Shown in pieces: positions 28,656 to 31,192 of a DNA stretch of 64,000 nucleotides. The first letter of the stretch is position 1. Each line of letters begins with the position of its first letter. Made by a program: the position numbers and the translations under genes. Source of the DNA: Pontibacter sp. E15-1 (GTDB lineage: Bacteria; Bacteroidota; Bacteroidia; Cytophagales; Hymenobacteraceae); contig NZ_JAKVIR010000021.1 of assembly GCF_022601975.1 (NCBI RefSeq), positions 52,771-116,770 on the forward strand. Reading direction: 5' to 3'. Under the pieces are notes generated by a model. The model was not told the origin of the DNA and ran no database searches. It saw nothing but the letters and a program-made list of their open reading frames with translations.

Positions 28656-30218
28656 TTAGTGCGTCATGTAGTTTTTAAGGTCCGAGATCGTTCGGATGTG
28701 GCGTGCTTCGGCTTGCTCTTCCCGCATCATGAGGGCATAGGTGTTGTTAAACCCCAGCGGCGGCATCCACTGAATGCCATACTCTTTCAAAAACCTGTCG
28801 GCCACATACCGGAACACGCGGTCTTTGTCCTGCGACAGCGCTGCGGCCTCGGTGGGTGCTGTGTTCAGAATCACTTGCAGACCCGTGCCAGTGTATTCCG
28901 GGTACGCGTCAATCTCGTTGGCGGCCAGCGCATCGAAGCAAATCTTGGTGCCGCCCAGCCCGGTTTGCGCCGACACCTGCAGGTCGGTATACCCCCGGAT
29001 CAGCTGCGTGAGCATTTCGGTGAGGATGTATTGCTCTGTGAAAATCTTCGAGCCCAGCCGGATCGTTTCGCCGGTGCCGTTCCGCGCTTCCCGCCAAAGG
29101 CCCTGCTGCTCCAAAAACTCCCGGGCAACCTGCGCCGGTGCTTGCTTTGAAAAGTCCACCTGGTAATTCAGGGCGGTCATGGTCGAGTCGGTGATGGTGC
29201 CGCTGAGCAGTTGGAGCACCTCTCGCAATTCGGGGTGCTTCCGCAGCACGGGCTCCCGCACCAGGAACGAGGCGTAATAGGGCGGGAAAGCACGCTGGTC
29301 ATCCTCCAGCACACGGAGGTTGAAGGTCTTGATCTTCCCGTCTGTGGAGTAGCCATCGATCACATCCACATCGCCCTCATGCACGGCTTTATACACCAGC
29401 GCGGGCCCCATAATCACGGTGTTCAGGTCAAGGCCATATGTGTGCCGCAAACCGGGGTATCCATCTGCCCGGCCCGCGAACTCCGGGCTAAGGCCAGCCA
29501 AAAGCCCGCCGCTGTTTGGCAGCAGGTAAAAGGAGGAGAGTATGGGCAAAGCCAGCACCAGCCCAAGCGAGGCAGGCCGCAGCAGGGGCTGGCGCAGGTG
29601 TTGGAGCCGCGCCAGCAGAAAATCAATCAGCACCGCTAGCAGGGCAGCCGGGAGCGCGCCGGCCAGAATCATGGACGTGTTGTTGAGGGCAATGCCGCCA
29701 AAGATAAACTCGCCCAGCCCCCCGGCCGCGATATAGGCTGCCAGCGTGGCCACCCCCACATTCAGGACTGCGGCCGTGCGGATACCGGCAAACAGCACCG
29801 GCAGCGCCAGCGGCAGCTCCACGCGCGTCAGCAGTTGCCAGTCGGTCATGCCCATACCTCGCGCCGCCTCTTTTACAGTCGCATCCACCTGCGAGACGCC
29901 GGTAAACGCGTTGCGGATAATGGGCAGCAGCGAGTACAGGAACAGCGCAAAGATGGCGGGTTTCGGCCCGATGCCCAGCACCGGAATCAGAAAGCCCAGC
30001 AGCGCGATGCTCGGGATGGTCTGCAGGATGCCCGCCACGGCAAGCACCGAACCGGCCGCTTTTTTATACCTGGTGATGAAGAGGCCAAGCGGCAGGCCGA
30101 TCAGGATGGCCAGCGCCAGCGAGACAAAGGTGAGGCCGATATGCTCCAGCGTCTGCTCCAGCAGTTTGGCCCACTGCAGCTGCACAAAATCCCAGAAATC
30201 CAGTAACATAGCCATCAT
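28656..30218 (-). CDS. ABC importer permease fused to a lobe-swapped glycine betaine/choline-type binding domain
   Basis: 520 aa from the ATG at 30218, which overlaps the ATPase stop as TGATG (the longer frame to 30278 lies inside the ATPase gene). Residues about 1-205 are an OpuCB/ProW-type permease (ALPVLFAGIRTAAVLNVGVA, AAYIAAGGLGEFI), followed by one more membrane segment near 217-235. The periplasmic part reads first DGYPGLRHTYGL ... VDVIDGYSTDGKI ... FPPYYASFLVREPVL ... ALNYQVD, then TIRLGSKIFTEQYILTEML ... IDAYPEYTGTGLQ ... PLGFNNTYALMMRE ... TISDLKNY and stops. In OpuCC/ProX-type proteins these two blocks come in the opposite order, so the domain is circularly permuted. Substrate is probably a quaternary amine or related solute. 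Confidence 0.85.
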   Translation of the reverse strand: MMAMLLDFWDFVQLQWAKLLEQTLEHIGLTFVSLALAILIGLPLGLFITRYKKAAGSVLAVAGILQTIPSIALLGFLIPVLGIGPKPAIFALFLYSLLPIIRNAFTGVSQVDATVKEAARGMGMTDWQLLTRVELPLALPVLFAGIRTAAVLNVGVATLAAYIAAGGLGEFIFGGIALNNTSMILAGALPAALLAVLIDFLLARLQHLRQPLLRPASLGLVLALPILSSFYLLPNSGGLLAGLSPEFAGRADGYPGLRHTYGLDLNTVIMGPALVYKAVHEGDVDVIDGYSTDGKIKTFNLRVLEDDQRAFPPYYASFLVREPVLRKHPELREVLQLLSGTITDSTMTALNYQVDFSKQAPAQVAREFLEQQGLWREARNGTGETIRLGSKIFTEQYILTEMLTQLIRGYTDLQVSAQTGLGGTKICFDALAANEIDAYPEYTGTGLQVILNTAPTEAAALSQDKDRVFRYVADRFLKEYGIQWMPPLGFNNTYALMMREEQAEARHIRTISDLKNYMTH

Positions 30219-31192
30219 CAGCGCAAGGTAGGGATGAAGTGAGCCACAGCGCCCATTAGCTCGGCCAGCGTAGCCCACTGTGCCGGGGCACGATCGGTGG
30301 CTTCCAACTGCAGGCTTTGCTGCGGGAGGTTCGCCGAGGCCAGCTGTTGCGTGGCTTCCAGCACGCTTTCGGAATCGGGCAGGGTGAGCGCAGCGGCAGG
30401 GTATGGCGAAGCCTCAGGTGAGAGAAACGGGCGCAGTTGGTGCAGCCGTAGCACCTGCAGCTGCAACTGAAAGAGCTGGTCTTGCAGGAAGCGCGAGACA
30501 AACGCGTTGGCGGGCCTGAACACAAGCTCCTGCGGAGTGCCCAGTTGCTGAATCTTCCCGGCGTCCATCAGGCAGATGCGGTCGCCGAGTTCAAAAGCCT
30601 CCTGTATGTCGTGGGTGACCAGCACCGTGGTTTTCTGCAGCCGCCGCTCCAGGTGCTTAAACTCTTTCCGGATGTGCGCCCGCGTGATCGGGTCCAATGC
30701 CCCGAAAGGCTCGTCCATCAGCATGACAGGCGGGTCCGTGACGAGGGCGCGGGCCAGACCGATGCGCTGCTGCTGGCCGCCGCTCAGCTCATGCGGGTAC
30801 TTGGCCAGGAACTGTGCCGGAGCCATACCCAGCAATTCCAGCACCTCGTGGGTGCGCGTGGCGGTTTCCGGTTTGCCCCATTTTAGCAGGCGCGGCACCA
30901 CCGCGATATTCTCTTGCACGGTATAATGTGGGAAGAGCCCGGCCCCCTGAATCACATACCCGATCTGGCGGCGCAGCTCCTCGGGCTTTTGCTGCTGTAT
31001 GGCCACGCCCGCTACCGTGATGCTTCCGGCAGTCAGCTCCTCCAGCCGGTTTATGAGCTTCAGCGTGGTGGTTTTGCCGCATCCGCTCGTGCCCAGCAGC
31101 ACCAGGGTTTCCCCCTCGCTCACCTCCAGCGACACGTCATTGACGGCCACGGCGGCAGCATACTTTTTACTCACGTTTTGTAGCCGAATCAT
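30218..31192 (-). CDS. ABC transporter ATP-binding protein, OpuCA/ProV type
   Basis: 324 aa. Walker A LLGTSGCGKTTTLKLINRL, Q-loop VIQGAGLFPHYTVQENIA, signature LSGGQQQRIGLARAL, Walker B VMLMDEPFGALDPITR, and switch His in VLVTHDIQEAFEL. The C-terminal 85 residues are Gln/Leu-rich and show no clear CBS pair, unlike osmosensing ProV/OpuAA. It energises the permease-binding protein fusion encoded next with a one-base TGATG overlap. With the adjacent sugar-phosphate genes, it may belong to an osmoprotection theme (inference). Confidence 0.88.
   Translation of the reverse strand: MIRLQNVSKKYAAAVAVNDVSLEVSEGETLVLLGTSGCGKTTTLKLINRLEELTAGSITVAGVAIQQQKPEELRRQIGYVIQGAGLFPHYTVQENIAVVPRLLKWGKPETATRTHEVLELLGMAPAQFLAKYPHELSGGQQQRIGLARALVTDPPVMLMDEPFGALDPITRAHIRKEFKHLERRLQKTTVLVTHDIQEAFELGDRICLMDAGKIQQLGTPQELVFRPANAFVSRFLQDQLFQLQLQVLRLHQLRPFLSPEASPYPAAALTLPDSESVLEATQQLASANLPQQSLQLEATDRAPAQWATLAELMGAVAHFIPTLR

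Follow-up and report, generated by a model that had tools for sequence, protein, structure and literature searches.

How can a substrate-binding domain whose two halves stand in reversed order serve an ATP-binding cassette (ABC) permease to which it is fused? This question is raised by a gene in a 64,000-nucleotide stretch of Pontibacter sp. E15-1 DNA (contig NZ_JAKVIR010000021.1, positions 52,771 to 116,770; hereafter, the window). A first-pass annotation made from the sequence had described the gene product as a circularly permuted domain of the OpuCC/ProX type joined to an ABC permease, and alignments to Pfam and to EgtUC agree with that description. We consider it very probable that the fusion supplies the membrane subunit for an ABC importer of quaternary ammonium compounds (glycine betaine, choline, or related molecules), carrying at the C-terminus of its permease a binding domain that is permuted and cut in lobe D2. 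Most likely, the permutation moved the tether from lobe D1 to lobe D2, with an effect that we infer below. The fusion gene and its parts, numbered within the window and by residues of the open reading frame (ORF), are as follows:

28656..30218, minus strand: permease/permuted substrate-binding domain fusion gene, 520 amino acids (aa) from the ATG at 30218 (ORF translation; Pfam BPD_transp_1 and OpuAC)
29589..30098, minus strand: ABC permease core PF00528, ORF residues 61-230 (Pfam E 3.5e-20)
29523..29591, minus strand: last transmembrane helix, leading the chain to the periplasm, residues 207-229 of the full-length model (AlphaFold2 [AF2] model; hydropathy)
29091..29510, minus strand: H2, the half of the binding domain that is canonically second, placed first, ORF residues 257-396 (EgtUC and PF04069 alignments)
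29070..29090, minus strand: linker between the two old termini (C to N), residues 397-403, approximately 7 residues (EgtUC alignment)
28659..29069, minus strand: H1, the canonical first half, placed last, ORF residues 404-540, stopping just past TISDL (EgtUC and PF04069 alignments)

The order of the halves was read from two references. The binding domain matches the Pfam family OpuAC (PF04069) at E 1.1e-57 with both halves covered, and the match is split in two: residues 261-391 align with profile positions 117-257, and the C-terminal stretch aligns with positions 2-113. In the PDB entry for EgtUC (9egi), residues 257-396 correspond to chain positions 137-276 and residues 404-536 to positions 6-134. 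EgtUC is also the best whole-sequence match in the PDB (1.6e-58), followed by ProX of Archaeoglobus fulgidus (AfProX, 2.4e-48) and OpuCC/OpuBC (3.6e-46). The chain thus runs permease-H2-H1 (P-H2-H1), and the canonical H1-H2 order of cluster F-III is absent from the window protein. At the level of sequence, these alignments confirm a circular permutation whose new ends fall in the loop that follows TISDL, within lobe D2. They also bear out the first-pass statements that the second part comes first, that the link after TISDL is cut, and that the old ends are joined near 29072.

The position of the cut determines which lobe faces the membrane anchor. In EgtUC of Streptococcus pneumoniae, lobe D1 consists of residues 233-331 and 445-506, lobe D2 consists of residues 341-432, and both chain ends are part of D1 (PMC9732360). 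EgtUC chain positions 134-137 equal residues 363-366 of that numbering, inside D2, given an offset of 229 that we verified by matching 14 pocket letters to the positions stated in the paper. Because the cut falls at residues 363-366 inside D2, the chain of the window protein should pass from the membrane into D2 and terminate in D2, with D1 spanning the new joint. The halves are thus exchanged in order, but whole lobes are not: the cut lies inside D2, and each half contributes to D1, as is normal for such domains.

We collected 115 related loci with the permuted window protein as query, ranked them by their match to it, and scanned them with hidden Markov models (HMMs) for segment order. In total, 97 loci were P-H2-H1, 15 were H1-H2-P, and 3 were lone permeases. 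The 97 include the window locus and all 80 of the best 80 of 523 relatives; because query-ranked sampling favours permuted relatives, the 97 do not tell how common the order is among relatives at large. Some loci may represent one genome twice (L008 and L063 appear identical in the junction alignment). The 96 loci besides the window share its order and junction, and the HMM edges of H2 and H1 lay 8-15 residues apart across the 97 loci (8 or 9 in 86). The Bacteroidota survey that the first-pass annotation had proposed therefore found a common junction. Its caution that this order might simply be the usual one holds within the sub-family (all 96 other full-length colinear loci), and the wider OpuCC/EgtUC/ProX relatives are canonical.

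By NCBI rank, the best 80 of 523 relatives belong to Sphingobacteriaceae (40), Chitinophagaceae (19), Spirosomataceae (6), Hymenobacteraceae (2), and Flavobacteriaceae (1), with the family not given for 11 and one labelled Nocardiaceae. Our genome searches were centred on the window's genome, that is, on Bacteroidota. Of 296 genomes drawn evenly from the phylum, at least 144 had some match, many of them to the permease only; at least 14 genomes besides the window's had a full-length colinear match, and at least 23 had H1-H2-P (22 by HMM, G222 by row positions). Within the genus, the family was found in 1 of 18 other genomes (G007, locus L002), in a copy that is 58% identical and belongs to a different subclade when the domains are placed in a tree; this patchy occurrence suggests gene transfer or differential loss. 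Among plasmids, 390 records matched the domain; each of the 40 listed matched in 2 or 3 pieces, and none in one piece across the junction. Two single loci stood out. A 62% identical copy (L091), one of the 80, lies on a contig labelled as a Williamsia sp. metagenome-assembled genome (Actinomycetota), and is perhaps a mis-binned Bacteroidota contig. In G108, the match (L011) contains a TAA and the ORF lacks the permease start, so this may be a broken copy.

The gene next to the fusion and the residues of the pocket both bear on what the protein transports. The neighbor is the following:

30218..31192, minus strand: ATPase gene of the ProV/OpuCA type, immediately upstream of the fusion gene (ORF, Pfam, TIGR01186)

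The ATPase matches ABC_tran at E 4e-38, and the locus thus combines a BPD_transp_1 permease with a cognate ATPase, as expected of a type I ABC importer. Its stop shares one base with the ATG of the fusion gene (TGATG). The fusion ORF is intact in translation and can reach from 28656 to at most 30278, where a GTG would give 540 aa; the ATG at 30218 is the likelier start compared to the GTG at 30278. The permease core has Lactococcus lactis OpuA (residues 42-225) as its top solved permease match by sequence. Across the permuted loci, a same-strand ATPase ORF lies at most 400 bp upstream in 92 of 97; among the remaining five, the ATPase is 429 bp off in one, and in three the available sequence reaches no more than 900 bp upstream.

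The pocket retains the residues that, in this group of proteins, grip the quaternary amine and the carboxylate, and it matches the tyrosine cage of betaine/choline binders. All 97 permuted loci have Lys242, Thr275, Tyr at 293, Thr296, Asn339, Tyr341, Glu375, and Tyr443, while Arg379 is present in 96 and Tyr419 in 90. The window protein holds the complete Tyr cage, with Tyr at the OpuCC-type cage positions, as well as the Lys, Thr, and Arg contacts, each position being conserved in 90-97 of the 97 loci. Given these residues and the adjoining ATPase, the locus fits a putative importer for betaine- or choline-like compounds. The genome contains only two PF04069 matches, both inside the fusion gene.

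Since EgtUC is the closest solved sequence, the protein might instead be a permuted EgtU, that is, an ergothioneine transporter. EgtU of S. pneumoniae (EgtUBC) likewise places a cluster F-III binding domain after the permease in one chain, with the ATPase in a separate gene (PMC9732360), and shares 46-49% identity over the aligned half. However, its halves are canonical and its chain enters D1, whereas the window protein is P-H2-H1, enters D2, and lacks the ergothioneine signature. The same paper names Gly244, Phe293, and Tyr337 as ergothioneine determinants and gives Phe, Tyr, and Phe at these positions in AfProX. The window protein has Phe, Tyr, and Phe as well. Among the 97 permuted loci, Phe takes the place of Gly244 in 95 and Gln in the other 2, Tyr that of Phe293 in all 97, and Phe that of Tyr337 in 96. 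With these determinants missing, an ergothioneine transporter is unlikely. OpuCC and OpuBC of Bacillus subtilis and ProX of A. fulgidus belong to the same sequence group and have the tyrosine-cage pocket; unlike the window protein, they have their halves in the opposite order and were solved as stand-alone proteins.

The order H2-H1 also occurs in OpuAC of B. subtilis (2b4l, 2b4m), whose ends lie in the same D2 loop. The permutation is known in the fold and is not confined to the permease fusion. That circular permutants occur among glycine betaine binding proteins (2b4l, 1r9l, 1sw1) was reported in PMC2395249. A homologue of B. subtilis OpuAC on an L. plantarum plasmid (L146, 3003-3920) is colinear with 2b4l and permuted relative to L. 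lactis OpuAC, and its best stretch begins at PF04069 position 114, compared to 117 in the window protein. An unpermuted OpuAC-type protein (L148) gives a colinear match to L. lactis OpuA. OpuAC is reported to show a "domain dislocation" relative to ProX, for which no paper was found among the matches listed.

One could suppose that the Bacteroidota permutation and that of B. subtilis OpuAC descend from the same event and represent one old topology. The equal order of the halves and the shared loop favor this idea, as does the structure search, in which B. subtilis OpuAC is the best Foldseek match of the window domain, although the sequence of that domain groups with OpuCC/EgtUC. Foldseek alignments follow chain order. 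By sequence, the two belong to different groups. In a tree built with the halves in a common order, three OpuAC-type rows (permuted L146, its near-identical L149, and unpermuted L148) are split by a 100/100 branch from 23 OpuCC-type rows, which are permuted and unpermuted. The window domain shares 16.7% identity with L146 and 36.5-39.5% with four unpermuted OpuCC-type relatives. A PDB search with the permuted-domain profile matched OpuCC-type chains, with L. lactis OpuAC at E 0.2 and B. subtilis OpuAC absent from the matches up to E 10. Profile comparison with OpuAC-type sequences gave probabilities of 2.4% and 0.4%, indicating no relation, while the control (L138, an unpermuted Enterococcus domain) gave 99.85% over H2 only. 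Because both groups contain unpermuted members, the order must have changed at least twice. Descent from one shared event is quite improbable. Furthermore, B. subtilis OpuAC is lipid-anchored, unlinked to its permease, and has a Trp-prism pocket (PMC2861598).

The AF2 model of the domain alone places both halves in one bilobed unit (predicted local distance difference test score [pLDDT] 92), and the block mean for the linker region is 94-96. The two halves are thus predicted to form a single two-lobe domain, in line with the closed domain that the first-pass annotation had suggested looking for. Importers of this family are dimeric, and H1 of one protomer could conceivably pair with H2 of the other in the permease dimer, a domain swap to which a reordered chain might be prone. 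The confident domain with its ordered linker in the single-chain model makes such a swap very improbable. A short link between the halves can suffice because both EgtUC ends are in D1 (PMC9732360). Finally, the order of the window protein differs from all listed solved members of its sequence group, but an assembly error, a frameshift, or a single degenerate gene can be dismissed given 97 of 115 loci with the same order, the 96 besides the window coming from many projects with the same junction, an intact ORF, and conserved pocket residues.

How the fusion arose is best considered together with its relatives. L138 and L140, fusions on Bacillota plasmids, are P-H1-H2, and six further plasmid loci (L139, L141-L145) have H1-H2 as a separate gene. 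The permease core and the domain are spaced almost equally in the two fusion types, by 30-34 residues (mostly 31-32) in the permuted fusions and by 30 and 31 in a pair of P-H1-H2 fusions from Bacillota. A P-H1-H2 fusion probably became P-H1-H2-H1-H2 by internal duplication of the domain and then P-H2-H1 when the leading H1 and the trailing H2 were lost. We also considered a one-step rotation from the Bacteroidota H1-H2-P fusion. This arrangement, a second fusion of the Opu type with an unpermuted domain before the permease, was found in 22 distinct loci (L021-L035, L118-L124), with a hydrophobic N-terminal leader in 4 of 4 inspected. We rejected the rotation as a one-step route, as the two arrangements differ in cyclic order and the H1-H2-P group forms its own single clade in both the domain and the permease trees.

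Several results weigh against our reading of the fusion as a permuted subunit of a quaternary ammonium importer, or against parts of it. In the best domain tree, the permuted group consists of a clade of 20 and three distant members outside it (L018-L020), and one clade for the whole permuted set has bootstrap values of 18, 28, and 38% in three domain trees and 0% in the permease tree, where the outgroup branches are very long and L018 pairs with them. The scanned loci included no tandem intermediate of the form P-H1-H2-H1-H2. Ser replaces Tyr419 in 7 of 97 loci, so specificity may vary, and this residue may mark a different ligand. The ATPase scores 297 bits against TIGR01186, short of the curated cut-off of 326.6, and one permuted copy (G022, L004/L135) has no ATPase ORF within 400 bp or nearby. 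The window genome has one BCCT match and no betA above the curated cut-off, a weak genomic context for osmoprotection. The full-length AF2 monomer model is moderate (pLDDT 84, predicted template modeling score 0.64); therefore, the orientation of the lobes at the membrane is something that we infer. With regard to the trees, an approximately unbiased test of 51 rows, with L142 and L145 removed as long branches, tolerated one clade for the permuted set (p 0.279). Judging by these trees, a single origin of the Bacteroidota permuted set is neither supported nor rejected.

If the fusion is such an importer subunit, the chain would enter D2, rather than D1, after the last membrane helix, and in the AF2 model approximately 7 residues separate that helix from the domain's first strand. 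D2 would then be fixed at the membrane, and D1 would be suspended from the hinge. Ligand capture would close the lobes and the domain would dock on the permease dimer; import would be driven by hydrolysis of ATP, as in EgtU and OpuA. L. lactis OpuA (OpuABC) also has domain and permease in one chain; unlike here, its domain is unpermuted by sequence. The full-length model has OpuA as its top structure match (7ahd_A, template modeling score 0.50, root mean square deviation 8.7), a loose match that we do not take as evidence on chain order because the OpuA domain is unpermuted and the lobes are alike. Circular permutation also occurs naturally in another ABC binding protein, Tp0684 (MglB-2) of Treponema pallidum, whose authors suggest that its topology may be an adaptation to membrane anchoring (PMC4990184). 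Unlike the window protein, Tp0684 is a lipoprotein with a Type I/cluster B fold and binds glucose.

Permutation in this fold and fusion to a permease are each already known. In the literature searched, mostly papers available without subscription and including PMC7824335, we did not find the fused P-H2-H1 family. What appears to be undescribed there is the combination of the two in a family of the OpuCC type, in which the tether has probably moved to the opposite lobe and the breakpoint is the one also used in OpuAC. The family also illustrates how order-dependent annotation can mislead: Pfam and PDB searches return two halves, and a structure search places OpuAC above the sequence kin.

Fused binding domains are tools for probing tethering, lobe closure, and docking in ABC importers. 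This family amounts to a natural experiment, in which a similar pocket and permease are retained and the opposite lobe is anchored by chain order. A second case of the same permutation also makes a breakpoint preference testable, as a matter of function versus folding. We tentatively raise the possibility, itself doubtful, that the D2 loop was opened at least twice independently, in OpuAC-type and OpuCC-type proteins, and that the Bacteroidota case was selected as anchoring through D2 works better when the domain is fused to the permease. If true, an ABC importer would here have naturally exchanged the lobe by which its binding domain is tethered, with a convergent breakpoint.
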